Shown: in pieces, positions 2-21,119 of the stretch
Numbering within the stretch: position 1 is the stretch's first letter
Layout: every line of letters begins with the position of its first letter
Source: a virus
Virus record (IMG/VR): IMGVR_UViG_3300000101_000015
Span: 35,858 to 61,300 of that record
Strand: one strand, 5' to 3'
Length of the DNA stretch: 25,443 nucleotides
Notes under the pieces: model-generated
What the model was told of the DNA's origin: nothing
Seen by the model: the letters and a program-made list of their open reading frames with translations, nothing else
The model's database searches: none
Program-made: the position numbers and the translations under genes

Positions 2-3000
2 GTAGTAGCTGATCAAAAAGCAAGAGAAAGTGTTTCTCCAGAAACTGTAATGCAAGAAGAAATAGTTGACATTGAGCAGGTTTTACAAGAAGCAGAAGTT
101 CCAGAAATAGAAGTTGATCAAGATAATGAAAACTCTGATGTTCTTAGAAATATCCTTGAACAACAATATATTATATATAGATCTAATGAAGTTTCACAAA
201 CTCCACTGACATATGATGAGTGGAAGAAAACTGGTGATGCTCTAAAGATTACACTTGCTTTTGATGCTATAAAAAGAGTATGGGCTAAAGGATATAAAAT
301 ATCTGTAGAAGAGTATGGTGTTCAAAGTGAGAGAACAAGAATACCAACAATAGAAGAAGTTAAAAATGAAAAAGGATTTCAAGAATTCTTAGATAGTAGA
401 GAAGGTATTGAAGACCCAACTATTCAAAAAATATTAAGTGATTTAGATTTAACTTATGATATTTTTACTAATAGAAATATAGATACTAAAAGTAATTTAA
501 AACCAATCAAAGGTGGTGACGGTGTAATGTTTAGAGTTATACCAAAAGATGTTGCTGGTACAGATGAAAAACTTTATCAAATACTAAATAACACTGGAGC
601 GGAATTAACAGCCATTCAATTAGATTTAATTGATGGATTTGGTGTTTATAATACTAAACAAAAAGCCATAGAGCAATTTAACATATTAGAAGAAAAATAT
701 TCTGATGGTAAAACTTTTAAATTTGATGGGTTAAATCTTGTCAAAGGTCAATTTGTTTATGATAAAATAACAGGGGAAGCATTTAGAATTACAAGAACTC
801 CTTTAGGTACTAAATTAACTTTAGTGTCATCTGAGGATTATGGTAAAGCTGAAAGAAAAAATCCTATAAGATATGAAACTGAATTAGATTTTTCAGAAAG
901 ATTTTATATAGAGAAATTAATTATTGAGAAAGTAGACGCTGGAGCTGCAAAGGTGAAAGCAGATGATGCTGTTGCAATATATGCCAGGGAAGGTAAGAAT
1001 GAAAGTAAAGAGTCTGCTAAAGAGCGTTTAAATTATATAGTTGCTAACTTAGATGAAGAAGGTGTATCAAAACTTACAATCAAGGTTTCTCTAAATAATG
1101 AGCTCTTGCCTTCTGACTATAGTATGAGAGGTGCTATGATTCCTAACCCTTATATAAAAGACAAAGGAGAAAAGTATAACTTAGAGATTGCTATAACAGA
1201 TCCTGATATGTTAAAGGACATAAATGAAGGTTTAGTTGCTGAGGGTTTAAAAGCAATAGATCCTGCTTTGAATGGAACATTTGCTCATTTAAGTAATGAC
1301 CGTTTTATATTTGAAGTATCTCAAGGTAAAGTATTTACACCTGCTACTATGTCTATTGATTTAGCAAAACAAGTATTTGTAGTAGGTAAAAATCAAACTA
1401 TAGAAGGTCAATTAGAAAAAGCTAAAAATAGTTGGGCTGATAATGACGCATTAATTAGTTTTATAGATGGTATATATTCTGAAGGTCAAACAGAAGTAGA
1501 CTTAGTTTCAGTTATAGGAAATGGATTTAGACTCAATAAAGTAGATGGTTATGCTGATTATGATGGAGCTAATCCTATGGTTACTTTACAAGAGTTTTAT
1601 GATAAAGGATTAACATCCAATGGTGCTGGTGGTATAATTATTTATGATAACACTAGAAGTGCAGATGGCAAAACAATTGATGGTAAACCTAATGCAATAA
1701 CTAATATTGCTGATGATGATTTAAACAAAGCATTACTGGATGAAGCTGAAGCAGGATTAAAAAAGAATGGAAGCTGGCAAAAAATGATTGGAGATAACTC
1801 AATGGGTTATCAAGAAAGATATCAGTATGCTATAAAACAATCAAACGGAACATGGACATTAGCCACTGCTAAGACTGTAGGTCAAGATCCAGCAGTAATA
1901 GAAAATTGGATGTCTTCAATGATGGATCAAGTGTTGTTGATGAAAGAAGGCATAAAGAATGACAAAGGTGGTTTTACAACTAAACCTTCTATTGGACCTA
2001 CTGGCAACTACATTAACGGTGCTACAAATGCTTCTATTGGTGCAGAGGTTGATCTTTTTAATAAAACAAATAATGAAGGTATTAGGATAGCAATGAATCC
2101 CGGTACAAATTTATTTATTACAGTAGCACCATTTGGAAAGATAAGAGCTGTAGTAGAAACAAACCGTACAAAAACGGGTGTAGTATATTTAACAGTAGAA
2201 GATATTAAGGCTGAAAGTAATCCTATGGTTAACTTGAAGAACTTAATGGACAAGGTAAATACAAAGATGGCTGAAGTGGGGTCACCTGCAAGAATTGCAT
2301 TGCCTCAGTTTAGTACATCATTATCTTTAAATGCAACTGTTCAAACAATGATGGAGTCATTGGCAACTAAACTAACAACAAAAGTTAGAAGAAATGCTAC
2401 ATACATTTTCCAAGCAACATCAGCTAAAAGAGAAGCATCAAATAATAAAGCTGTTAATGTATCTCAAACACCTGTTGATCAAGCAGAAGCAAACACAAAG
2501 AAGCTAACTGACTTAGGAGATAGTATCACAACAGACGCTATATTCCAACAGACAGAAGTCTTTACAGATGCAGAAGGTAACCCTATTCCAAAAGGACCTG
2601 AGCTAACCGCAACAAATACTGCAGCAGTAGATTTGACATCTCTTGCTCAAAAGCCTTTAGATCAACTCAATTCTAAAATGAAAGAGATTGAGCAAACCAT
2701 AAAGGATGAAGTTGGACCACGTGGTTTAGCAGAAGCATTAAGAAAAAATGAAGTATACCAAAAATTAAAAATAGCTAGAGATAAGTTAATAGCAAACAAA
2801 ATTGCTTTATCATTTACAGAGTCTGATATTAAAGACTTAGAAGAATTCACTGTATGGGCACAGAATAACCTTCCTAGCTTTATTACTATAGAAGATATAC
2901 GTGCTCTAGGATCCAATATGTTAAGAGGTGGAATCAGAGTAGGTGGCTTTGCATTAAACTTAAATGCATTGGCTGGAGGATTGAAGATAGGTGGAACAAT

Positions 3001-6000
3001 CTATACTGGTTCTTCTAATCCATTTAAATACCATGAAGCGTTTCACTCTGTTTACAGATTATTACTTACTCCTGAAGAGCAAGAAAATTTAAGATCTATT
3101 GCAAGAAAAGAAGTAAGAGCTAAACTCAGAGCAGAAGGAAAGTCTTTTGTAAAAGAAATACAAAAATTTAAGAACTCTGCTGAACAGTATGATAGTCTTA
3201 GTAAAAAAGAATTGGAGAACCTATACTATGAAGAGTATATGGCTGATCAATTCCAGTTGTTTAAAAATAACGCTACAGATAGTTCTACAAGTTCAGAAGT
3301 CAAATCATTCTTTACAAGATTACTAGAATGGATTAAGGGTGTTTTTAGTAAGTATACAAAAAATGAACTTAGTAAATTATTTGAAAACATTGATGCAGGT
3401 AAATATGCAAATGCTCAAGCTGTATCTAATGATTTTACAGATAACTATAGTAACGGTGTTACAATAGCCAATGCAATGATCCCTTATAAGTCATTACAAG
3501 TAGGGGTAACAAAAGGTGAATTATATTTAGAAAGCTCTGTTGCTAATAATATAGTCTTATCTATGGCAGCTATGTATATAGAAAGACAAAAAGATAACCC
3601 ATCAGAATCTGAGATTGATAGAATGAATGGGATTATTTCAGACTTTGCTTGGTTATATAATAAAGATAATGAGGCAAACATTGAAAGCATAAGCAATCCG
3701 GATAAAGCAGAATTGTTATCAAAGCTGACTGATGCCTTTTTGGATTCACAAACTTATGATGACAGGACTCAATCTCCATTTTATAAAGCAGCATTTTCTG
3801 TATTAGATACTATTGATTTTCAAAAAGCTGTTGAAGAGGATCTTGCAGAAGAGTATGAACAAGAAGAAGGTCTTAGAAATGTAACTCAGTTTGGTAAGGA
3901 AACATACTTGAATGGTAGTTTTAGTTCTTTATCTACATACATGAGAAAGTATTTAGCAACCATTACAAGAGAAGAAGGAGATATATTTGGAAATCAGTTT
4001 ATAACTAGAGATGACGGAAGAGAAGAAAAACTTATAGTACCAATAAATGTATACAATACATACAATGGTATAATGAAAGCTGTTACTGGTAGAACTGAGC
4101 CAATTGAAATACTACAATCACTTGCAATTTTTGCAGATAGTAATCCAGATACCAAGGCTGCAGTAAGCAAAATATTTAATGACCTAGGTATAAACTTGGG
4201 TGATCAAATATCTGAAGAGCTTTTACCAACTACAATTACAAATAGTATTTTGTTTAATCAATTAAAAGCGTTTGTTAACTTTAAGGTTGAATGGTTATTC
4301 CAGAAAGCAGATAAAGCTGGTAATGTTATAACATTTTCTGCAGCGGAAAGAGATGATGCAAATACCCAATTGAGTTTGTGGAGCCAAGCATTTACTACAT
4401 TTCTACAAGAGTGGAAAATTAGACCTCAAGGTAGAGACAATGCTGTAAGTTCTGTATCAGGTTTTAGAAGAGTGTTGTTAAGTGGTCAAACATTTAATAA
4501 ACAACAGTTAACTGATCAAGCCAATAATATATCAAAGCTTGTTTATGATACTACTGGAATAAAGTTATCTCCATTGTATGTGAAGTATAGCATATTAAAA
4601 AGCAATGGTGTAAACAACAATGATGCAGATCAGCAACTTTTATTAAGTCTAAATACAGAGGCAGAAGCCATAACTGCAGAGCAGCTTTATTTCATACAAG
4701 AAATAATAGCAAATAAAAAGAATGCTCATCAGTTATATAGTGATGAAGAAGGTGCTGCTGGTAGACTTAAAATGATGGCTGTTAATAATGCTATATTTGA
4801 TGAGACTATAGGGTTATCAGTATTTAAAAATGTTAATGGTGATTTAGTTAATACACACCAAAAGCCAACCTTTCATTTAAAAAGAGTGGCTGCATTAAAC
4901 AACCTAAGTGAAATAGATAGATTGCTGTTAAAACCATATCTGAGAGATAATTATTTATTAAACAGTGAAGAGTTTCTAGCTATGTCTGCATCAAACTTGC
5001 TTAAAATTAAAAGAGTTTCTGGTGTAGCTGAAGTAGAAACATTGGATAGAAACGCAGATTATGATCAATATATTAGTGGTGTATTAAATACAACAGAATA
5101 TGGAAGCTTTACAGCAACTCAATTTTTAACAAACTTAATAAACAACTATACTTTAGATTTTAATACAAAGTCTTTAGCGTTAAAGAATACAATAGTAAAT
5201 GATGAAACTCAACAAGTAGAACAAATTGGAACTGCTCCTGTACAGATTAGAGTTTTAGAAAGCTCTAATACAGATGATAAGATATCACTTCCTGTAATAC
5301 AAGCGGTTTCAAATGTTATTGATAAAGCAATTACACCAGAAGCTATTGATATAGCCTATGGTTTTGTTAAGAATGAATATAATAGAATTGTACGTGAACA
5401 AGGTGAAGAAGGTATTCAAGATTCATATAAAGGTTATGAAGAAAGAAAAAATACATTCTTTAATAATAGTGACTTAATTTCTGATGAACTTAAATTAGGC
5501 TTAGAAGAATCAGCAAAGGCTAACCTTGAAGGTAAAACATTTACCTTTGAAGAAGCTTTATCTAATAACGAGAGTGGTGATAAAGACTTTAGAAAACAAT
5601 TAGAAAACAGACTTAATGCAAAGTATGATAGATTTAAAAGTTTGTATGACAGATTAAATATAGATAGTAAAATATCTAAAGAAATTAAATCCGGTCTTGT
5701 TCAAGATAAAACAGGAGATGCTAGGGCTAAGGCTGTTGAAGCATCTGCAAAACTAAACATGAGATTTGATAAGGACTACAACCTTAAACAAATATTTTTA
5801 AATGATTATTTAAATACCAAGTCTATAAATGAATTGCTCTTAGGTGATCAAGCTTTAATTTTAAAAGATGCGGTTGATCAAATTAAAAGAGCTAAAGGTC
5901 AGAATGCAGCATATGATAATGTCTATACTTCTTTAACAAGTGAGAAGTTAGGGGTAACTTCTGCTACAGAAGAGATATCAGTTCTTACGTTTACTGATCC

Positions 6001-9000
6001 TGTATTAGAATCATATTTTACAGGTAAAGATATAGAACGTGCAGATGCACAGATGTATATAACTACAAAAGCATTTAGACATTTTTGGTTTGGGTTAGGT
6101 AAACTTACTCAACAACAAGCTGATGTAATTACTAAAATAGAAAAGGGAGAAGAAATTACTACTGAAGATATATTTGGTGAGAGTGGTTTAATTGCTACTG
6201 ATGGTATGTTAAACTCTAAGAAGTTTGTACACTTTGATGGTGAGTCATTTATCAAAATGTCTGCCTTTGTATTAACTCCAGAATACACATCTATAAATAC
6301 AGGTAAGAAAGATGATAACGGAAATACAGTTTGGGCTGAGCATCCTTTAAGACCTGAGCTTCATAAGTTAAGACAAGATCTAGAACGTCTGGAAACAACT
6401 ACAGGTAATGTATCAATAGCAACTCCTGTCTCAGCACAGAAGATGGCTAAGAAAAATATTCAATCTTTGACTAGTAGTATTACAGAACCTTCTAGTACTA
6501 TTAGTGCAAAGGACTTTGGATTACAAGTAATAAATCCTAGTAATAAGAATAAGGTAACTGAAGTAAGTCAGATTAAAATATTGGCAACAAATGAACAGAA
6601 TGATAAACAGCCAATTATTCTTGAAGGATATCCGGGTGTAACAAATATTGCTGATGTTAAGAGACTATATAATGATGCACTGAAAAAAAGAATTACTCTC
6701 AAGTATAAAAATAAAAGAAACCTAACTTTTTCTTTTGATGGTTTGATGTCTGAGTTTAGTGTGAGTAAAGAAAGAAATAAACTTACTCCTGACTTAGCAG
6801 CATTTATGACTTATGCAGTTAATTCATTAAAGGCATCCAAGTCAAGCGGTACAATAATGGAATTCTTTTCTATTGATCCTATTTCAGGAGAACCTAAATT
6901 TGATTTTAATAATCCACTAGCAGCGCCAAAGGCTCAACAATTATTTTTGAGTTACTTTACAAAAGACGTATTCCAAGAGAAAATACCAGGGCATGGTTTA
7001 GCTTTAGTATCTGACTTTGGTAATACAGTATTTAGACGTGTCTATAGTGTAGAAGAGGTAAAACAAAAAGATGGCACATTCAAATACTTGCCACTAAAGC
7101 ATGAAGTAATAAGAGAAGATGTAGCTAAACGTATGAGTGGGTTAGAGGCATTTGATTACTCTTTATCAACTTTATCAGGAATGACAATACCAAAAGAAGG
7201 AATTGTAATTGTTGATAGATTAAGATATGGGTTACAAGAGTTTAATGCTAAAGGAGAGCCAACAGGTTTACGTTATTCTGAAGGTATGATGCCAGCTCAC
7301 TTAAAAGATGTATATGAAAAGATACAATTAAAAGGAGGGTCTATACCAGATGTAATTGCAAAAATGTTTGCTGTACGTATTCCATCACAGGATAATCATT
7401 CTACTATGAATATTAAGCTTGTAGATTTTATGCCAGTATATTATGGCTCTTCTGCAATGTTCCCCGCTGAATTGATTGAAGTATCAGGAGCAGATTTTGA
7501 TATTGATAAAGTATATACTCAAATTAAAGAATACTATTATTCTCAAGATGACAGAAAGTTCTATGCTTATGGAGAAACAAAAGGGAGAGAGTATGCTGAT
7601 TATGTTGAATATATTAATAATGAAGTTCAAAAAGACAATTCATATTCTGAGGCAGTAAAATCATTTAAAGTCCAAGGTTCAAAACTTGAGGATTCTTATG
7701 ATGATAGTGAGCTTCTAGACACACCGTTTACTGATAGTGGTTTAAAAGCAGTAACAAGATTGGGATTACCTGCAACAAAAAAAGCATACAACACATATAA
7801 AGAATCATATGGTGAACCTTATTTAGCACCATATAACAATATATCTTTGGATATGAGGTTTGCATTAATGGGTAATGAATCTGTACAAAACATTTCTGTT
7901 ACACCTGCATCACTACTTGCTGTAGAACAATCATATGAATATTTAAAAAGGTTTGCGCCTAATTATGTTGCTAGTATGGATGGTGCACAAGTTGATGTTG
8001 ATGATGCATACGGTAAAACAATTTCATTTATAAATAATAAAGGGGCAGCTATTGGAAGAGCAGTATCACCTAATTTATATTTAAGTTTACTTTCTGAATA
8101 TAAAGTAAAAATAAATCCTGAGCAGGCCTTTGTCTTTTTAGGTAAAGAATATACTGGGTTTGATCAACCTCTAAATAAAGATGGTCAAAGAAAGCAAGAT
8201 GAAATATCTGCTGTAATAACTATGCTTACTGATAATTCTAAAGAGAATTATATGTCTAAGCTAGGGATGCACCGTCAAGCAGTACCCCTTGCCACTAACT
8301 TAGTAGCTTTAGGGATGCCTTTAAAAGAAGCTATTCTTTTATTAAATGTTAAAGAAGTAAGAGATCTATTTGAGAAGGCTGCAAATAAAGAAAATAAATT
8401 TGATCCAAGTTTTGCAAGTCTTGTTAATGAACGTTTGTATGATTTAAAAGAACAAAAGAAACTTGGCACTCTACCAGCTGTAGAACGTGAAGAGGGTTCA
8501 GTATTCAGTAAGAAAATTGATGAACAATCACTGGGTCAAATGATTGAATCTGGTGCATCTGCACAACAGGAGATGGAGATATTAGATATTATATCTAAGA
8601 TTAATAAGATTTCAAGTTTTACAGGTAAAATGAATTCATTAACTGGTATATCTGGTAGTGCAGGTTTAGGAAAAAACTTTGCTTCTATTGCTAAGACAAG
8701 AGCAGATCTTGTAGAGATAGGTGCAATAGAGGAGAAGGGTGTAAAACCTGATATGGATATATCCCGTATTCTAGAAAATAGTTTTGTAAAACAAAATTTA
8801 AATATCTTTAATGAGATAACAAATGAGTTATTGCCAGTTACATTCTTAACTGCAACAGATGGATTTACTGAATTTTATAATAAATTAAAAAAGTCTTTAG
8901 GAACAGAGTCAAATAAATTTACTGAAGAGACAGAACAAAAAATTAAAAATGATATGCTTTCTTATTTTACAATAAAAGCATATATGAATAATACAAAAAA

Positions 9001-11419
9001 TACATTAAGTAAAGGTGCCGGTACATTAAGTAATCAACTTATATACCCCATAGTAGGTGCTCAAAATATTTTTGATTCAGTTAGAAGATTAAATGCTGCT
9101 GATAAAGATAATTTCTTTTTAAAATCATTTATTACACAGCTTCCAATTAGTGCTGAGACTAACATTAAAGGATTAAACTTGTTAGAAGCAAACACATGGA
9201 GAAATTTAAATAAGCTACAAAACATAGACTTACAAACTTCATTTGCTAAACTATATGGTAACCCTAACACAAGAAGAGATGCTATGACCATAGTAAATTA
9301 TATTATGGTTAAAGATGGTTTACAACTAGCAAGTCAAAGTTTATTGCAAGCAATATCACCATTTGTTTTAGATGGTTATTTACAGCAAATAACAAATGCA
9401 AAAGAGTCTCTTCTAAATGATAACAACTATGAAGAAACATTTGGATTAAGCAAAGAGGAATTGTTTAGTGAGTTTGAGACAGGCTACTTAACGTCTAATG
9501 TTAATACACTTAAAATTGTAGGCAGAGAAATATATACTGATATAGCAAACCAGTCTACAGTTCAAGGAACTCTTAAAGGTCAGATTAAAATTACAGAAGC
9601 AGATGGCAAAAGAAAGCTAACTCTGAAGAAGAGAACAAACAAAGCTGATGAGTCATTTGAATATGATAATCAGCCTGCAGTAATAAGAATCTATACTGAA
9701 GCAGAGCAACAGAGTGGTAAAATGAAAAAGTCATCTAGACTTTATAAACTCTTACCTAAAGACACAGAAGGCAACTTAGATCAATCAAGTTATCAGTATA
9801 TTGAAGTTCCAGCAATGGGATCTAATTTTCAGAATGGTATAGGGTTTATGTTTGGTCCTAGAGATACCTATGCTGAAGTTAGAGAAAACATAACAAATAA
9901 AGGATCAATTGCATTTGGTCAGGATATAGATATGCTAGGTGTTAACCAAGATATTGCTTTAGATGCTGCCTTAGATAATATGGAGTTTGACAGAAAGAAT
10001 TCATTACCTGCTCAAGCTTTAGGTATGGAAAGTGCAAATGTATCTGCTACAGAAGACAGTGTAGATTTTCAAATAGATTCATCTGTTCCTCCAGTTAACA
10101 TTGCACAGGTAGATGCTAATACATTTTTGGAAAGCATAACAACTCCTACAGAACAAACTAGTGGTGTTGAAGCTGAGATTAAAAGATTAGAGGCGGAAAG
10201 AGATAAGGAGTTATTGGCTAATAATAAGTTAAAATTACAGGATTTAAAAACAAAGGTTTCTAATAAATTTGGCACATTACAAGATTCTAAAGCAGAACTA
10301 TTAGAAAAGTATAAAGGAAATGAGGTTATTGAGTTTATAATCAACAATCTTTATGATGTAAATCCAGGAAGTAATGCGTATGTAGATTTAGATGAATGGC
10401 GCTCTTCTGAAATATCAAAATTTAACTTAAAAAGTAATAAGTTAGAAGAAGCAGTTATTTTTAACTTTCCTGAGCTAACAAAAAAAGAACTTACTAATAT
10501 TTTATCTCCTGTTAGTGAAAGTATTTTTCTAGAACACAAAGCTGCTTTAGTAGCTGAAGCAGAAGGTCTTTCTGGACTTCCTGATAATTTATCAGAATTA
10601 AATGCTGAAAAGATCATCACTAAATACGAGAAACTAATAGCTAAAGCTAAACAACAACAAACTAGTAAGGTTGAAATATCTTCTAATGCTAAAGGTTTAG
10701 CAGCAGCGCTTACTAATCCTACGGAATTAGCTAAGTCTAAAGGTAACCTTGCAGAGTCTTACCCTATAACTTTTAACGGTAAAAACTATAAAGATGTTGA
10801 GGCAGCTTATCAGGCATTAAAAGATAAGTCTGAAGCTAGGACTAAACCCACTAAGGAAAATAGTAATAACTATAGGTTGATGGTAGATTTAATATCAGCT
10901 AAATTAGAGCAACACCCTAGGTTAGTTTCTTCAATAACTGAAAAAGGAGGTGTTGATTGGATAAGTTCTTCTACTCACCAACCTACTAAACAAAATACAG
11001 TTTGGGAAACGGGTGGTCAAGATTGGTTTATTGAATCTTTAGCTGATGCTTATAGATCTACTCAACCAGCAACACAATCAAGAGAACAAGCTAATATTAA
11101 AACAGAGTCAGAAGGTGTTGTAGTAGCTGAAGATAACATGCCTAAATTAACTGCAAAACAAGATGAACAATTAGATTTATTTGAAGCAGCCTTGGAAGAC
11201 AAGTATCCATTAATAACGGAATTCTATAATGAAACAATTAATGCTCCATATATAGCAGATGAATTTTCAGAGATGAGAAAAAATCTAGCTGACAATAAAA
11301 TTGTATCTTTGGAGAGCCTGATAGCGCTGTATGAAGATCCTACATTAACATATAAGGGTAAAACTGAAGAGGAAAAAACTAAGAATTTCTTAGATGAAAT
11401 TAAAAGATGTAATTTATAG
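2..11419 (+). CDS. Giant crAss-like virion RNA polymerase multidomain protein (5' partial)
   Basis: The frame is open to the left edge: codons from base 2 run without a stop into the first ATG at base 50, so the true start probably lies outside the window. Residues below count that ATG as 1 (3,789 aa). Domains in order: a long unassigned N-terminal part (1-990); a zincin motif HEAFH at 995-999 with EEYMAD at 1061-1066; long helical segments; an RNA polymerase core at about 2100-2800 with the metal loop DFDID at 2482-2486; a charged helical, probably coiled-coil stretch near 3400-3450; a NADAR-like domain at about 3543-3685; and QLDLF at 3707-3711. Proteins of this family are packaged in the virion, injected, and transcribe early phage genes. 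It is longer than the phi14:2 protein (about 2,180 aa as I recall), so several functions appear fused here. The stop is 3 nt before the next giant gene, so the two are surely co-transcribed. The polymerase call is strong; the other domains are motif-based inference. Confidence 0.85.
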   Translation, partial: VVADQKARESVSPETVMQEEIVDIEQVLQEAEVPEIEVDQDNENSDVLRNILEQQYIIYRSNEVSQTPLTYDEWKKTGDALKITLAFDAIKRVWAKGYKISVEEYGVQSERTRIPTIEEVKNEKGFQEFLDSREGIEDPTIQKILSDLDLTYDIFTNRNIDTKSNLKPIKGGDGVMFRVIPKDVAGTDEKLYQILNNTGAELTAIQLDLIDGFGVYNTKQKAIEQFNILEEKYSDGKTFKFDGLNLVKGQFVYDKITGEAFRITRTPLGTKLTLVSSEDYGKAERKNPIRYETELDFSERFYIEKLIIEKVDAGAAKVKADDAVAIYAREGKNESKESAKERLNYIVANLDEEGVSKLTIKVSLNNELLPSDYSMRGAMIPNPYIKDKGEKYNLEIAITDPDMLKDINEGLVAEGLKAIDPALNGTFAHLSNDRFIFEVSQGKVFTPATMSIDLAKQVFVVGKNQTIEGQLEKAKNSWADNDALISFIDGIYSEGQTEVDLVSVIGNGFRLNKVDGYADYDGANPMVTLQEFYDKGLTSNGAGGIIIYDNTRSADGKTIDGKPNAITNIADDDLNKALLDEAEAGLKKNGSWQKMIGDNSMGYQERYQYAIKQSNGTWTLATAKTVGQDPAVIENWMSSMMDQVLLMKEGIKNDKGGFTTKPSIGPTGNYINGATNASIGAEVDLFNKTNNEGIRIAMNPGTNLFITVAPFGKIRAVVETNRTKTGVVYLTVEDIKAESNPMVNLKNLMDKVNTKMAEVGSPARIALPQFSTSLSLNATVQTMMESLATKLTTKVRRNATYIFQATSAKREASNNKAVNVSQTPVDQAEANTKKLTDLGDSITTDAIFQQTEVFTDAEGNPIPKGPELTATNTAAVDLTSLAQKPLDQLNSKMKEIEQTIKDEVGPRGLAEALRKNEVYQKLKIARDKLIANKIALSFTESDIKDLEEFTVWAQNNLPSFITIEDIRALGSNMLRGGIRVGGFALNLNALAGGLKIGGTIYTGSSNPFKYHEAFHSVYRLLLTPEEQENLRSIARKEVRAKLRAEGKSFVKEIQKFKNSAEQYDSLSKKELENLYYEEYMADQFQLFKNNATDSSTSSEVKSFFTRLLEWIKGVFSKYTKNELSKLFENIDAGKYANAQAVSNDFTDNYSNGVTIANAMIPYKSLQVGVTKGELYLESSVANNIVLSMAAMYIERQKDNPSESEIDRMNGIISDFAWLYNKDNEANIESISNPDKAELLSKLTDAFLDSQTYDDRTQSPFYKAAFSVLDTIDFQKAVEEDLAEEYEQEEGLRNVTQFGKETYLNGSFSSLSTYMRKYLATITREEGDIFGNQFITRDDGREEKLIVPINVYNTYNGIMKAVTGRTEPIEILQSLAIFADSNPDTKAAVSKIFNDLGINLGDQISEELLPTTITNSILFNQLKAFVNFKVEWLFQKADKAGNVITFSAAERDDANTQLSLWSQAFTTFLQEWKIRPQGRDNAVSSVSGFRRVLLSGQTFNKQQLTDQANNISKLVYDTTGIKLSPLYVKYSILKSNGVNNNDADQQLLLSLNTEAEAITAEQLYFIQEIIANKKNAHQLYSDEEGAAGRLKMMAVNNAIFDETIGLSVFKNVNGDLVNTHQKPTFHLKRVAALNNLSEIDRLLLKPYLRDNYLLNSEEFLAMSASNLLKIKRVSGVAEVETLDRNADYDQYISGVLNTTEYGSFTATQFLTNLINNYTLDFNTKSLALKNTIVNDETQQVEQIGTAPVQIRVLESSNTDDKISLPVIQAVSNVIDKAITPEAIDIAYGFVKNEYNRIVREQGEEGIQDSYKGYEERKNTFFNNSDLISDELKLGLEESAKANLEGKTFTFEEALSNNESGDKDFRKQLENRLNAKYDRFKSLYDRLNIDSKISKEIKSGLVQDKTGDARAKAVEASAKLNMRFDKDYNLKQIFLNDYLNTKSINELLLGDQALILKDAVDQIKRAKGQNAAYDNVYTSLTSEKLGVTSATEEISVLTFTDPVLESYFTGKDIERADAQMYITTKAFRHFWFGLGKLTQQQADVITKIEKGEEITTEDIFGESGLIATDGMLNSKKFVHFDGESFIKMSAFVLTPEYTSINTGKKDDNGNTVWAEHPLRPELHKLRQDLERLETTTGNVSIATPVSAQKMAKKNIQSLTSSITEPSSTISAKDFGLQVINPSNKNKVTEVSQIKILATNEQNDKQPIILEGYPGVTNIADVKRLYNDALKKRITLKYKNKRNLTFSFDGLMSEFSVSKERNKLTPDLAAFMTYAVNSLKASKSSGTIMEFFSIDPISGEPKFDFNNPLAAPKAQQLFLSYFTKDVFQEKIPGHGLALVSDFGNTVFRRVYSVEEVKQKDGTFKYLPLKHEVIREDVAKRMSGLEAFDYSLSTLSGMTIPKEGIVIVDRLRYGLQEFNAKGEPTGLRYSEGMMPAHLKDVYEKIQLKGGSIPDVIAKMFAVRIPSQDNHSTMNIKLVDFMPVYYGSSAMFPAELIEVSGADFDIDKVYTQIKEYYYSQDDRKFYAYGETKGREYADYVEYINNEVQKDNSYSEAVKSFKVQGSKLEDSYDDSELLDTPFTDSGLKAVTRLGLPATKKAYNTYKESYGEPYLAPYNNISLDMRFALMGNESVQNISVTPASLLAVEQSYEYLKRFAPNYVASMDGAQVDVDDAYGKTISFINNKGAAIGRAVSPNLYLSLLSEYKVKINPEQAFVFLGKEYTGFDQPLNKDGQRKQDEISAVITMLTDNSKENYMSKLGMHRQAVPLATNLVALGMPLKEAILLLNVKEVRDLFEKAANKENKFDPSFASLVNERLYDLKEQKKLGTLPAVEREEGSVFSKKIDEQSLGQMIESGASAQQEMEILDIISKINKISSFTGKMNSLTGISGSAGLGKNFASIAKTRADLVEIGAIEEKGVKPDMDISRILENSFVKQNLNIFNEITNELLPVTFLTATDGFTEFYNKLKKSLGTESNKFTEETEQKIKNDMLSYFTIKAYMNNTKNTLSKGAGTLSNQLIYPIVGAQNIFDSVRRLNAADKDNFFLKSFITQLPISAETNIKGLNLLEANTWRNLNKLQNIDLQTSFAKLYGNPNTRRDAMTIVNYIMVKDGLQLASQSLLQAISPFVLDGYLQQITNAKESLLNDNNYEETFGLSKEELFSEFETGYLTSNVNTLKIVGREIYTDIANQSTVQGTLKGQIKITEADGKRKLTLKKRTNKADESFEYDNQPAVIRIYTEAEQQSGKMKKSSRLYKLLPKDTEGNLDQSSYQYIEVPAMGSNFQNGIGFMFGPRDTYAEVRENITNKGSIAFGQDIDMLGVNQDIALDAALDNMEFDRKNSLPAQALGMESANVSATEDSVDFQIDSSVPPVNIAQVDANTFLESITTPTEQTSGVEAEIKRLEAERDKELLANNKLKLQDLKTKVSNKFGTLQDSKAELLEKYKGNEVIEFIINNLYDVNPGSNAYVDLDEWRSSEISKFNLKSNKLEEAVIFNFPELTKKELTNILSPVSESIFLEHKAALVAEAEGLSGLPDNLSELNAEKIITKYEKLIAKAKQQQTSKVEISSNAKGLAAALTNPTELAKSKGNLAESYPITFNGKNYKDVEAAYQALKDKSEARTKPTKENSNNYRLMVDLISAKLEQHPRLVSSITEKGGVDWISSSTHQPTKQNTVWETGGQDWFIESLADAYRSTQPATQSREQANIKTESEGVVVAEDNMPKLTAKQDEQLDLFEAALEDKYPLITEFYNETINAPYIADEFSEMRKNLADNKIVSLESLIALYEDPTLTYKGKTEEEKTKNFLDEIKRCNL
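2945..3270 (+). other. Zincin-type metalloprotease domain inside the giant polymerase protein
   Basis: H995-E-A-F-H999 (bases 3032-3046) is an intact HExxH zinc-binding motif. About 62 residues downstream, EEYMAD (1061-1066) could supply the third ligand (E1061 or E1062), as in gluzincin-like proteases where an E near an AD pair completes the site. The stretch just before it is Gly-rich with alternating hydrophobic residues, which fits the beta strands that precede the active-site helix. All predicted catalytic residues are present, so it may be active. A possible job is maturation of the giant protein or cleavage of a virion or host protein. Limits are approximate. Confidence 0.65.
6380..8330 (+). 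other. RNA polymerase catalytic core (double-psi beta-barrel region) with DFDID metal loop
   Basis: The core centres on SGADFDIDKVY, with the three aspartates D2482, D2484 and D2486 at bases 7493-7507. It corresponds to NADFDGD of cellular RNA polymerase beta-prime and to the DxDxD loops of YonO and RNAi-type polymerases. Upstream, AVRIPSQ (about 2441-2447) followed by VDFMP matches the spacing of the conserved R-x-P segment before the loop in beta-prime-type barrels. An earlier segment with SAQKMAKK near 2127 may belong to the other barrel. Downstream, MLTDNSKE (about 2727) and the following helix are the kind of conserved block seen after the barrels in this family. The motif is read directly; limits are inferred. 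Confidence 0.8.
10681..11085 (+). other. NADAR-like (YbiA-type) domain at the C-terminal end of the polymerase protein
   Basis: Residues about 3543-3685. The pattern follows NADAR proteins such as YbiA: YPITFNGKNYKDVEAAYQ matches the strand-turn-helix that carries the conserved Glu (E of VEAAYQ; the usual following His is Ala here), then a helix containing AKLEQHP, which resembles AKFEQH of YbiA, then WETGGQDWF, which resembles the Trp-Gly-Gly segment before the last helix. NADAR proteins act on ADP-ribose-type substrates, including removal of ADP-ribose from nucleic acid bases in some systems. The leading segment GLAAALTNPTELA is typical of phage versions as I recall them. Whether it is active is unknown. 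Confidence 0.55.
11168..11182 (+). other. QLDLF sliding-clamp-binding-type motif
   Basis: Residues 3707-3711 read QLDLF, an exact match to the bacterial beta-clamp-binding pentapeptide consensus QL(S/D)LF. It lies in an acidic, polar segment just after the NADAR-like domain and about 80 residues before the C-terminus, a plausible exposed linker. A short motif can arise by chance, so function is inferred. Confidence 0.35.
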
Positions 11420-17692: not shown

Positions 17693-17850
17693 GTACTGAA
17701 AATACATGTAAGAGTTGTGATAAACCCATGACATATTATGGAGGGACCAAGATAGATGGCCCCTTTTTTTATTGCCATTTATGTGACTTAGTATTATTTA
17801 TCTATCCTTCACAAGAAGAACACTCTAGTATATTACGTGCAAAGTCTTGA
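17680..17850 (+). CDS. Possible small zinc-ribbon reading frame without an ATG (or -1 frameshift extension of the holin)
   Basis: The frame contains CKSC (bases 17707-17718), DKPM, a Gly-rich turn, and FFYCHLC (second CxxC at 17773-17784), a classic two-knuckle zinc-ribbon layout with 18 residues between the pairs. There is no ATG before the first pair; the given start is an ATT. The frame is -1 relative to the holin, whose end reads AAA-TAA after a run of four A, so slippage of one base back at the stop would fuse the ribbon to the holin C-terminus. Against it: the terminator lies inside this frame, and its last 49 nt overlap the 3' end of nrdA on the other strand. Chance is possible, but the pattern is good. 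Confidence 0.3.
   Translation: MKKISTENTCKSCDKPMTYYGGTKIDGPFFYCHLCDLVLFIYPSQEEHSSILRAKS
17742..17770 (+). terminator. Rho-independent terminator after the holin-like gene
   Basis: AGGGACC (17742-17748) pairs with GGCCCCT (17758-17764) with one A-C mismatch, with a 9-nt loop, followed directly by seven T (17764-17770). It lies 50 nt after the holin stop and before the convergent nrdA gene. The opposite strand has no T-run after the same stem, so it acts only rightward. Confidence 0.7.
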
Positions 17851-19427
17851 GCAGAACTTTTACTAAACTGATAGTATAAAGTTTTAACTCCTTCCTCCCA
17901 GGCATACATATAAAGTTTATTAATATCCTTTGCTGACACAGACGGATCAATCATTAAGTTTAAACTTTGAGATTGATCAATATACTTTTGTCTTTGAGCT
18001 GCTTGCAATACAATCTCTTTAGGAGATATCTCAACAAAAGATTTAAACACTTCTTTATTAGGAAAGTTTAAGTGTTGCACACTCCCATCTTTCTTAAGTA
18101 TAGATTGCCAAGTCTTAGTATTATTTAAACCATGCTTTTCTAACTGTGCCTCTAGGAAAGGATTCTTATACACTGTCTTAGACTTAGCAAGATCCTTAAT
18201 AAAGTAGTTGGACTTGATAGGCTCTATCCCCATGCTCACAGCTCCATGAATGAAAGAACTAGATTTAGTAGGAGCAATGGCCATAAGAGTAGTATTAGCA
18301 TAACCATCCCTAATAGAATTGTATCCATGCTCTGTATGTAACTTTCTTGATGCTATCTCACTCCTGTCTTTAAGTGTTCTAAATATTTCACTGTTTAAAC
18401 CTTTAGCTTGTAGTGAGTCAAACTCAATAAGTTTTGATTGAAATAATGAATGGTAACCCATAACACCTAGACCAACAGCTCTGTGATTTTTTGCAAAATT
18501 ATAAGCTCTCTTCATACCAGGCATTGTTTCTGCCTTAATAATAAACTCATCCATTACTGCATTAAGAAAATACACATATGTTTCTACAGCATCTGTTTCT
18601 TTAATCTCATCCCAGTGCAACAGGTTAATGGATCCTAAGCAACACACAAAGGAGTTATAACTATCTGTAGGTAATTGTATCTCAGAGCATAAATTTGATG
18701 CAGTGATCTCAAGACCTAATTCTTTATAAGGAGAATTGTTATTAGAGTTATCTTTAAACATTATGTATGGAAAACCAATCTCACTTCTGTTTTGAATAAT
18801 CTTGGCCCATACTTTACGTTTGCTTTTGTCCCCGGCTTTCATCTCTTCCATCCATGCATCACCAACTGTGACACCATATTGAAGATTCTGAATAGGGTTA
18901 CCATCTGTTCCAATATCTAAGAACTCTAGAATGTCAGCATGCTCTACAGGTAAGTACACTGCACATGCTCCACGTCTTGCTTCAGATTGTTTACATACAT
19001 CTACTACAGTATCATATATCTTAGCATAATGAACTGGTCCATCTGCAAATCCTCCTGTAGAAATAGGAGCACCTCTTTCTCTAATGTTTCCTAAGTAAGC
19101 TGAAGTTCCACCTCCATACTTAGACATCATTCCAATTTCACGGCCAGCATTTAATATACTGTCCAAGTTGTCATCTACATTAGATCCGTAACAACTGATA
19201 GGTAATCCTTTTGCTTTACCAAAGTTAATCCACACTGGAGTTGACAAAGAGTAATACCCTTTGGCCATGTAGTGTTCAAACTTTTCTGCAAATCCTTTTA
19301 TATTCAAATACTTTTCTGCTTTAATAGCAATGTCTTTGATTCTTTGTTCAGGGGTTTCTGTTATATAACCCCTTGATAAAAATGTGCGGCTATCTTCATT
19401 CAGCCAGTAATAGTTATTATATTCCAT
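17802..19427 (-). CDS. nrdA: Ribonucleoside-diphosphate reductase, class I, alpha (catalytic) subunit
   Basis: 541 aa. The large subunit converts ribonucleotides to deoxyribonucleotides for phage DNA synthesis. Key residues are all visible (E. coli equivalents in brackets): C79 in PISCYGS (C225), N245, C247 and E249 in NLCSE (N437, C439, E441), C262 in VCCLGSINL (C462), the Tyr pair Y518-Y519 (Y730-Y731) and the C-terminal CSSC, C536 and C539 (C754, C759). It is about 200 residues shorter than E. coli NrdA because it begins near the catalytic barrel and has no N-terminal ATP-cone, so dATP feedback inhibition through that domain is absent. It follows nrdB by 12 nt on the same strand, so the two form an operon. 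The gene faces the holin gene. Start chosen at MEYNNYYW, the first ATG after the nrdB stop. Confidence 0.95.
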   Translation of the reverse strand: MEYNNYYWLNEDSRTFLSRGYITETPEQRIKDIAIKAEKYLNIKGFAEKFEHYMAKGYYSLSTPVWINFGKAKGLPISCYGSNVDDNLDSILNAGREIGMMSKYGGGTSAYLGNIRERGAPISTGGFADGPVHYAKIYDTVVDVCKQSEARRGACAVYLPVEHADILEFLDIGTDGNPIQNLQYGVTVGDAWMEEMKAGDKSKRKVWAKIIQNRSEIGFPYIMFKDNSNNNSPYKELGLEITASNLCSEIQLPTDSYNSFVCCLGSINLLHWDEIKETDAVETYVYFLNAVMDEFIIKAETMPGMKRAYNFAKNHRAVGLGVMGYHSLFQSKLIEFDSLQAKGLNSEIFRTLKDRSEIASRKLHTEHGYNSIRDGYANTTLMAIAPTKSSSFIHGAVSMGIEPIKSNYFIKDLAKSKTVYKNPFLEAQLEKHGLNNTKTWQSILKKDGSVQHLNFPNKEVFKSFVEISPKEIVLQAAQRQKYIDQSQSLNLMIDPSVSAKDINKLYMYAWEEGVKTLYYQFSKSSAQDFARNILECSSCEG

Positions 19428-19439
19428 AATTAATTGGTT

Positions 19440-20420
19440 TTAGAATAAGTCATCTTCTGTGATGCTTTTACTCTTCTTGTTGTAGTCTACACTCTTTTTA
19501 TAGAAGAAGTCTCCTTCTTTGGTTCCTAATATCTCTATATCAAACCACTCAGTGGACCTTAATAGTTCTGAGTCAACTTCAAAGATTGACTTCATACCTA
19601 TCTTCTCTAGAGAATTATTAAACCTGTTTTTTATAAAGTTCTGAATAGTTTCCTTAGATAGAAACTTTAGTTCACCTTTTTCAAAGATCCAATCTAGTAT
19701 ACCACACTCAGCAGTATAAGCTTTTTTACAAGCAGAATAGATTAGTTCTTCAAACTCTTCATCAAACCATTCAGGATTTTCTTTCTTAATGATGTTGATG
19801 ATCTCAACTCCAAAGTTACCGTGTATCTCCTCTTCTTTTGATGTTGCTTCTACAACATTAGATATGCCTTTAAACACATTCTTTTCTTTATTGAAGCTCA
19901 TCATAATCAAGAACTGGCTAAATAAGCTTACATGCTCTATAAATAAAGAAAACAGTAGTACAGATTTAGTATACATCTTATCATCTCTAGAACGTGTACC
20001 ATCTAGGTACTTCTTTAAGTACTTAAGTCTACCTGCAATAGCAGGCACTTCAATAACACTTTGAAATTCTTTTTCAAGTCCTAGTATTCTAAGCAGCCTA
20101 GCATAAGCATCTTTATGTCTAACTTCTGATTCAGCAAATGTCATTCCTACATCTCCTACCTCAGTAATAGGCATGCGTTTGTACATATCAGCCCAAAATG
20201 TTTTCACATTAACTTCTATTTGTGCAATAGCCAACATAGTCTTTTTAATAACATCACGCTCTGATGGCGTAATGGTTACTTTAAAGTCTTGTATGTCCTC
20301 TGTAAAGTTAAATTCTGTATCTATCCAGTAAGAATGTCTGATGGCATCTTTATATGCTAGGAGTTGTGGGTACTCATATGGTAATATATTTGTTCTAGGT
20401 TTAAAAATGTCTCTGTTCAT
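19440..20420 (-). CDS. nrdB: Ribonucleoside-diphosphate reductase, class I, beta (radical) subunit
   Basis: 326 aa, ferritin-like four-helix di-metal protein that generates the radical used by NrdA. Visible metal ligands: E99 and H102 in ESEVRH, E162 in LFIEH, E197 and H200 in EEEIH. The radical Tyr is Y106, four residues after H102, as in E. coli Y122. The position of the first ligand, Asp84 in E. coli, appears to be Glu69 in QIEV. The C-terminus (ITEDDLF) is a polar tail of the type that docks into NrdA. The gene starts 24 nt downstream of a terminator-like hairpin, so it may be controlled by attenuation or have its own weak promoter. The AT-rich leader shows no Shine-Dalgarno. Confidence 0.95.
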   Translation of the reverse strand: MNRDIFKPRTNILPYEYPQLLAYKDAIRHSYWIDTEFNFTEDIQDFKVTITPSERDVIKKTMLAIAQIEVNVKTFWADMYKRMPITEVGDVGMTFAESEVRHKDAYARLLRILGLEKEFQSVIEVPAIAGRLKYLKKYLDGTRSRDDKMYTKSVLLFSLFIEHVSLFSQFLIMMSFNKEKNVFKGISNVVEATSKEEEIHGNFGVEIINIIKKENPEWFDEEFEELIYSACKKAYTAECGILDWIFEKGELKFLSKETIQNFIKNRFNNSLEKIGMKSIFEVDSELLRSTEWFDIEILGTKEGDFFYKKSVDYNKKSKSITEDDLF

Positions 20421-20440: not shown

Positions 20441-20473
20441 AAAAAGCCGCATCCCTCAAAGAAGAATGCAGCT
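20441..20473 (-). terminator. Rho-independent terminator or attenuator between the 62-aa gene and nrdB
   Basis: On the minus strand AGCTGCAT pairs with ATGCGGCT (plus-strand arms 20466-20473 and 20445-20452, one mismatch), followed by five T (20445-20441). It lies 46 nt after the 62-aa gene's stop and ends about 20 nt before the nrdB ATG. No clear promoter fits in the 20 nt that remain, so readthrough or attenuation is likely if nrdB depends on upstream transcription. Confidence 0.55.
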
Positions 20474-20518: not shown

Positions 20519-20707
20519 TTAGAACTTAATATTTACAAATGATATTGTTAAAAATATTAAGCCTATTTCTAAACCACTGACCCAGCGGTATTTATCATCT
20601 TCACACAACACTTCACAGTTTACAGTTTTTAAACCAAGTAATGTTTCAGTTGGAAAAAACTCTATGTTAAATCTATTCTTAAAAACTAAGGGATTTACTT
20701 TACTCAT
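20519..20707 (-). CDS. Small conserved-looking protein with one C-terminal membrane helix
   Basis: 62 aa. The first 40 residues are mixed polar with two Cys (CEVLC); the C-terminal part (about 45-60) is a hydrophobic helix (GLEIGLIFLTISF) ending in a basic residue, so the protein is probably tail-anchored in the inner membrane. It is the first gene of the leftward transcript from the divergent control region, ahead of nrdB-nrdA. I do not recognise a family. The upstream promoter-like boxes and downstream hairpin support it being a real gene. Confidence 0.6.
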   Translation of the reverse strand: MSKVNPLVFKNRFNIEFFPTETLLGLKTVNCEVLCEDDKYRWVSGLEIGLIFLTISFVNIKF

Positions 20708-20763
20708 AATTAATATATTAAGGTTTTTGTCAGAATTATTTGTATATTACATGTATACTTATC

Positions 20764-20797
20764 TTGCTGACACAAGACAAATATACCATTATATTTG
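20764..20797 (+). promoter_or_regulatory. Bacteroidota-type promoter for the rightward structural arm
   Basis: TTG (20764-20766) is followed after 23 nt by TATATTTG (20790-20797), an exact TAnnTTTG box. Transcription would start near 20804, giving a leader of about 49 nt before the ATG at 20853. A weaker second candidate is TTTG at 20814-20817 with TAAAATTG at 20839-20846, which would start almost at that ATG. Confidence 0.45.
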
Positions 20798-20812
20798 ATT
20801 AGGTTAATCAAA
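20778..20812 (-). promoter_or_regulatory. Bacteroidota-type promoter for the leftward small gene/nrdB/nrdA arm
   Basis: On the minus strand TTTG (20812-20809) is followed after 23 nt by TATATTTG (20785-20778), an exact TAnnTTTG box. The spacing is at the long end of the TTG-N17-23-TAnnTTTG range reported for flavobacteria. Transcription would start near 20771, giving a leader of about 64 nt. Host sigma factor use is assumed. Confidence 0.45.
20794..20812. promoter_or_regulatory. Palindromic operator-like site in the divergent promoter region
   Basis: TTTGATTA-GGT-TAATCAAA: two perfect 8-bp arms (20794-20801 and 20805-20812) around 3 nt. It overlaps the -7 box of the rightward promoter and the -33 box of the leftward promoter, so a dimeric repressor here could block both. 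No regulator gene is in the window. Confidence 0.45.
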
Positions 20813-20852
20813 ATTTGTATATTATTAGTATAGCACTTTAAAATTGAAAACA

Positions 20853-21017
20853 ATGATTAAGAAATTGATACATGTACTTTGGACATTTAGTCCTCAAGAC
20901 TATTGGAAATGGGCTTGGTCAAAGACTGAGGTTGATGAAAAAGTTATAGCAGGTGTAAAAGAAACTAAAAGGAGAACTAAGGCGGTTGTTAAAGCTGTCA
21001 AAGGAAAAACTAAATAG
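20853..21017 (+). CDS. Small basic protein, first gene of the rightward operon
   Basis: 54 aa. The N-terminal half is Trp-rich (YWKWAWSK) and the C-terminal half strongly basic (many Lys/Arg). No family recognised. It is supported by its position just after the divergent promoter and by its stop TAG being followed at once by the ATG of the next gene. The basic tail could bind nucleic acid, but that is only composition. Confidence 0.5.
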   Translation: MIKKLIHVLWTFSPQDYWKWAWSKTEVDEKVIAGVKETKRRTKAVVKAVKGKTK

Positions 21018-21119
21018 ATGAGACAAGTTTGTATATTAATACAATGGCTTTCAAGAGGTAAGATTTGTTTGGGTCATTGCCGTCAAGGATTATGTAAAAA
21101 AACTAAAAGTAAATTATAA
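21018..21119 (+). CDS. Very small Cys-containing basic protein
   Basis: 33 aa, beginning immediately at the preceding stop (TAG-ATG) and ending in TAATG, so its stop overlaps the next start by one base. Four Cys are present, three in the segment ICLGHCRQGLC, which with a His could hold a metal. No family recognised. The coupling at both ends is the main evidence that it is translated. Confidence 0.45.
   Translation: MRQVCILIQWLSRGKICLGHCRQGLCKKTKSKL

Follow-up and report, generated by a model that had tools for sequence, protein, structure and literature searches.

Putative promoter elements between the reductase module and the structural genes of an uncultured crAss-like phage

The divergent region and its relatives

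The stretch of DNA analysed here (the window, 25,443 nucleotides) comprises bases 35858-61300 of an IMG/VR virus record of 61,300 bases. On its minus strand lies a ribonucleotide reductase module, in which an ORF of 62 aa comes first (20519-20707), followed by the genes for the small subunit (19440-20420; PF00268, E 6.1e-57) and the large subunit (17802-19427; PF02867, E 8.2e-99); many relatives have an ORF of 62-63 aa in the place of the first of these. On the plus strand, a 54-aa ORF (20853-21017) is the first gene past the second of two predicted promoters that are described below, and after it come genes of holin and tail type. The minus-strand genes of one relative have matches to DnaB-type helicase, primase-like, UDG, dATP/dGTP diphosphohydrolase and chaperonin proteins, and the plus genes include those for terminase, portal, capsid and tail. 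Among 20 minus ORFs of a relative, there was no match to a sigma factor family. A preliminary description of this DNA had placed divergent promoters between metabolic and structural arms. The present analysis supports this placement, with the reductase as the metabolic arm on the minus strand and the structural arm on the plus strand. The locus is probably a divergent control region, with the reductase module on its minus side and a structural and lysis block on its plus side.

The terminase of a relative (G002) has about 24-25% identity to many crAss-like records, and the capsid protein of the same relative is closest to those of Leptolyngbya phage Lbo-JY46 and Cellulophaga phi17:2. It is by these terminase and capsid matches, rather than by a phylogeny, that we class the phage, which is uncultured, as crAss-like. 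The plus strand of the window also encodes giant proteins (3805 and 1921 aa), which have no match in Pfam nor, for the one protein searched there, in the PDB. A protein of 3789 aa at 50-11419, likewise without a PDB or Pfam match, contains the sequence SGADFDIDK, which we take to resemble the DxDxD motif of polymerases.

With the reductase small subunit as query, the best 80 of 502 stretches encoding a relative were taken, and these, together with the window, make up a compared set of 81 sequences. In 52 of the 81, the 11-mer TTTGTATATTA lies within 1 kb upstream of the reductase, in 26 distinct segments. Among the remaining 29 sequences, three are truncated (L025, L036 and L056) and 26 have a co-directional open frame of 118-141 codons upstream, so that these 26 represent another genomic context. 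Since the 52 divergent records were chosen for holding TTTGTATATTA, they display the co-occurrence of this motif with the divergent layout and give no unbiased rate. Within these 52, drawn from the best 80 of 502 and the window, a box of the form TAnnTTTG precedes the reductase module in 44, a mirrored pair of TATATTTG boxes is found in 14, and a perfect 8-3-8 palindrome in 9. A separate scan for the box pair, with a pattern that itself fixed nearly all letters of the arms, returned 18 records in six haplotypes, and a further pattern scan returned 45 records, from which no rate was drawn since the box was fixed by construction.

The small subunits of L005-L008 are 97-98% identical to that of the window (19440-20420), yet their context is different and co-directional, and L027, L029, L038, L040, L076, L078 and L079 share the upstream region and the palindrome of the window with a protein that is only 90-91% identical. 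This mismatch between protein identity and upstream region suggests that the reductase module has been exchanged between phages.

The reductase-side box and the symmetries around it

The box ahead of the reductase module is TATATTTG at 20785-20778 on the minus strand, with a predicted start at about 20773. It has the form TAnnTTTG, which the available text of PMC9723704 gives as the consensus of the Flavobacterium sigma-A -7 box, located from -12 to -5. Across diverged clades the box reads either TATATTTG or TATCTTTG, and its TAnnTTTG form is retained in the two main clades, where its distance to the motif of the type found at 20814 is 35-36 or 48 nt. It thereby matches the -7 element of the sigma-A promoters of Bacteroidetes, which have TAnnTTTG at -7 and TTTG at -33, and in most relatives the box is followed by a conserved ORF. 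It is, by these comparisons, a conserved host-type -7 element, from which we infer a promoter for the module. The likeness to the Bacteroidetes promoters ends further upstream, where a TTTG would be expected about 19 nt upstream of the box, but even a TTG is found at 17-22 nt in none of 30 distinct boxes. The -33 TTTG is reported, in the accessible part of PMC2483708, to be non-essential and yet required for full activity, and from this follows that the missing TTG weakens the assignment of the box to the sigma-A class without overturning it. The enrichment of TAnnTTTG upstream of minus genes is mild: the pattern occurs in 12 of 54 regions, where 5.3 would be expected, and takes rank 40 among 2104 gapped patterns, and this counts against a strong promoter claim.

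The most enriched 7-mer upstream of the minus genes is GGCTTTT (9 against 0.94). Between the 62-aa ORF and the small-subunit gene, the minus strand contains a terminator-like hairpin of 13 pairs followed by a T-rich stretch (20445-20473), which could attenuate transcription of the reductase.

A mirror image of the minus box, TATATTTG at 20790-20797 on the plus strand, might serve as a host-type plus promoter in one subclade only. The preliminary description had correctly reported the two boxes on opposite strands, and had also stated that they overlap; they are 4 nt apart, and the overlap would be one of promoter footprints, with mutual exclusion of polymerases possible in principle. The two boxes together make up a perfect 8-4-8 inverted repeat, CAAATATA-CCAT-TATATTTG (20778-20797), which went unlisted in that description. 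Among 300 copies of the window generated by a first-order Markov model, 8 contain opposite TATATTTG boxes at most 12 nt apart, which makes the pair moderately unusual. TATATTTG as such occurs nine times in the window, against 3.4 expected, and most of the occurrences are within genes. In an alignment that did not fix the letters of the arms, both boxes are kept in 14 of 15 upstream regions.

Consider now the case in which the mirrored -7 boxes constitute a bidirectional host promoter, a single polymerase site used in both directions, with starts at about 20773 and 20802 and with competition between its two orientations. Bidirectional promoters that arise through -10 symmetry are, according to the available parts of PMC10268837 and PMC12825309, established in enterobacteria, and the present locus is similar to those of the Grainger group in having two mirrored core boxes, divergent genes and possible competition. 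Symmetry of the boxes is perfect in 14 of the 52 records. In the scan for the box pair, whose pattern fixed nearly all letters of the arms, the arms stay the same and the 4-nt spacer varies, and in four scanned genomes intergenic mirrored pairs occur at this locus and nowhere else, one per genome where present. Moreover, a second lineage (L013 and L028) has over its reductase promoter a mirrored pair of its own, CAAAGATA-ATA-TATCTTTG, in which the box is a different one, and this makes the mirrored -7 box a more interesting symmetry than the 8-3-8 palindrome. However, the starts predicted from the box geometry are 29 bp apart, whereas bidirectional promoters are defined, in the accessible text of PMC10268837, by divergent starts 7-25 bp apart; the boxes here are separate where those of the Grainger group overlap, and they read TAnnTTTG and not TATAAT. 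No mirrored pair at all is present in 36 of the 52 records. For the plus box, a conserved combination of -7 and -33 was not found in the relatives: the box is confined to a subclade, of 15 aligned sequences only two, those of the window and L004 (identical there), have a TTG 23 nt from it, and a better-kept candidate for the plus promoter lies 24 nt downstream. A bidirectional promoter is therefore an unlikely account of the pair.

The 8-4-8 dyad could, instead, be an operator, by which a phage or host regulator covers the -7 box of the reductase and represses or times the module. The dyad sits exactly over that box, and across the six haplotypes its arms are invariant, being largely fixed by the search pattern, and its 4-nt spacer is free to vary. 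Such an operator is nevertheless rather improbable, given that the dyad has a single intergenic copy per genome where it is present and is missing from most relatives, and that no candidate regulator was identified.

The arrangement proposed in the preliminary description was one of two interlocked host-type promoters, each with a TTG as its -33 element, jointly silenced by one repressor bound to an 8-3-8 palindrome. Every letter that this model needs is present in the record: a TTG lies 23 nt from each box (20764-20766 on the plus strand and 20811-20809 on the minus strand), and TTTGATTA-GGT-TAATCAAA at 20794-20812 is a perfect palindrome letter for letter. As -33 elements, neither TTG is supported, since the one for the plus box is limited to the window and L004, and the one for the minus box is part of the CAAAA flank of the motif at 20814, which in the other clade is separated from the box by 35 nt. 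The palindrome is, by Markov comparison, unremarkable as such: perfect inverted repeats (arms of 8, loops of 0-6) number 9 in the window, and 30 Markov copies have on average 6.0, with a range of 1-13. It is perfect in 10 and broken in 8 of the 18 records that keep both boxes, and the broken haplotypes, three of the six, retain only 5 or 6 of the 8 pairs. The left part ATTAGGTT is retained in two of these three haplotypes, and the right arm, which is the most variable stretch, is different in every one of them. Absence of the palindrome from close relatives had been named in the preliminary description as a refutation of the proposal. By this test the palindrome fails, and the symmetry that would be expected of a repressor operator is not kept between relatives. 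The palindrome is rejected as a conserved operator, and the switch operated by a single repressor is left without evolutionary support. A regulon is likewise rejected, as the exact palindrome occurs once in the 61.3-kb record, and ten relatives give only scattered matches with two mismatches, where a reversed control gives some matches too. We regard the interlocked arrangement, taken as a whole, as very improbable.

An RNA hairpin or terminator was also considered and rejected; the hairpin formed by the palindrome is weak (-4.0 kcal/mol, z -0.46), no terminator is predicted there, and no Rfam family was found in the region of the palindrome (best E 0.91, below gathering). Besides the window, 9 IMG/VR records have the exact palindrome adjoining the phage motif. 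The palindrome itself is real, but its occurrence is limited to the closest relatives, and it is unlikely to be the switch; it and the plus TATATTTG box would be additions at the level of a subclade and, at most, modulators.

A repeated motif ahead of the structural genes

In the aligned upstream regions, conservation reaches the farthest in a block of the form TTTGTATATTA-ttNN-TATAG and not in the box pair. On the plus strand of the window (20814-20833) this block reads TTTGTATATTA-TTAG-TATAG and lies 39 nt before the start codon (ATG) of the first plus gene; we refer to it as copy 2, a predicted promoter of late type. The corresponding copy 1 (20739-20758, plus) reads TTTGTATATTA-CATG-TATAC, and a third exact copy of TTTGTATATTA (21028-21038, plus) is followed 91 nt on by a 49-aa ORF. 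As their selection by TTTGTATATTA requires, each of the 52 divergent relatives has this 11-mer upstream of the reductase.

There are 5 copies of the 11-mer in the record of the window and 19 in four assembled genomes, this record included. Every one of the 19 copies is intergenic, lies on the structural strand and is located 21-114 nt before an ATG, although intergenic DNA amounts to only about 5-6.5% of the sequence. Ten relatives together have 42 copies, 40 of them on a single strand, compared with 7 matches to the reversed pattern, and one record is without any copy; three of the ten relatives are among the four genomes, so that the counts of 19 and 42 overlap. The motif is also recovered when the k-mers of 70 regions upstream of plus genes are ranked without guidance, with GTATATT, TGTATAT, TATATTA and TTTGTAT among the top 7-mers. 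A position-weight scan detects extra, weaker intergenic copies on the plus strand, and its lowest-scoring hits are mostly in genes, as they would be by chance. Sites of E. coli sigma-70 type (10 against 5.6 expected in the AT-rich region) were uninformative.

Late promoters of phages form a general class in which the motif is phage-specific. The element at 20814 is like this class in that the same short motif precedes several structural genes on one strand. What sets it apart from the late promoters of named phages is its sequence, TTTGTATATTA, which at up to one mismatch has no clear excess over the control in phi14:2, cr50_1, phi17:2 and Lbo-JY46 (the counts for Lbo-JY46 are 20 and 7 against 13 and 8), and from this the motif appears to be specific to the present clade. 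Among the weaker copies from the position-weight scan is a variant, TTTGTAAATTATAAAT, which three genomes have 24-25 nt ahead of a gene of conserved length, 188 aa (at 10626 in L002, with equivalents in G002 and G007). In L002, a TTTGTATATTA site also lies ahead of a plus gene of 745 aa (6436-8673) with a match to the VWA domain (PF00092, E 9e-6), for which the named phages contain no relative. The available text of PMC8375218, PMC10136315, PMC7886860 and PMC10770324 deals in part with virion polymerases and early genes, and a crAss-like promoter motif does not appear there, and a literature search, mostly without subscription papers, found no such motif described.

The element at 20814, which the preliminary description missed, is most probably the actual plus promoter. 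Of the two host-type promoters proposed there, the minus one persists as a conserved -7 box, but the plus one does not, as relatives keep TTTGTATATTA at 20814 and not the box at 20790. The placement of the motif before structural genes suggests that it is a promoter that acts late.

Tandem copies and a proposed order of transcription

The distance from copy 1 at 20739 to copy 2 at 20814 is exactly 75 nt. The same tandem spacing is found in the other clade (L011, L044 and L058), where the upstream copy reads TTTGTATATTG and where the minus box, despite the identical spacing, is shifted 12 nt from its place in the clade of the window. Copy 1 is aimed straight through the reductase promoter, and from this follows that transcription in the late phase should occlude that promoter. 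By a permissive pattern, a late-type copy stands head-on to the minus box at a distance of 12-60 nt in 32 of the 52 records; in the other 20 no late copy faces the box, and occlusion is thus no general rule. In L021 and L050 the tandem copies are about 416 nt apart, and in G005, from which L021 is taken, the two are separated by a plus ORF of 94 aa, which suggests that copy 1 may be what remains of the promoter of a lost gene.

The arrangement that we find the most probable, with considerable room for doubt, is a host-type reductase promoter that lies between tandem phage promoters of late type and that can be occluded by late transcription. In the early or middle phase, the host polymerase would read the reductase module leftward from 20785-20778. 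In the late phase, the TTTGTATATTA-N4-TATA copies at 20739 and 20814 would fire rightward into the structural block, and the transcription that starts at copy 1 would run across the promoter of the reductase and occlude it, so that nucleotide synthesis would be turned off as the virion genes are turned on. The timing would in this case be set by which transcription machinery is present, and not by one repressor on the palindrome. It is also conceivable, though we think it a good deal less probable, that the locus is a one-way switch without any repressor, in which the mirrored host-type -7 box serves early, for the reductase and weakly for the plus block, after which a late machinery of the phage, starting from copy 1, runs through the box and shuts the reductase promoter, and copies 1 and 2 switch the structural block on.

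The locus illustrates how an eye-catching palindrome can turn out to be a passenger beside a conserved promoter. Few isolates of crAss-like phages have a known transcription programme, and a well-supported 11-base motif before structural genes is a concrete element that can be tested. The motif poses the question of which machinery reads TTTGTATATTA, the host polymerase together with a phage factor or a polymerase of the phage. If the one-way switch described above is correct, TTTGTATATTA-N-TATA would be the first late promoter motif described for this environmental crAss-like clade.
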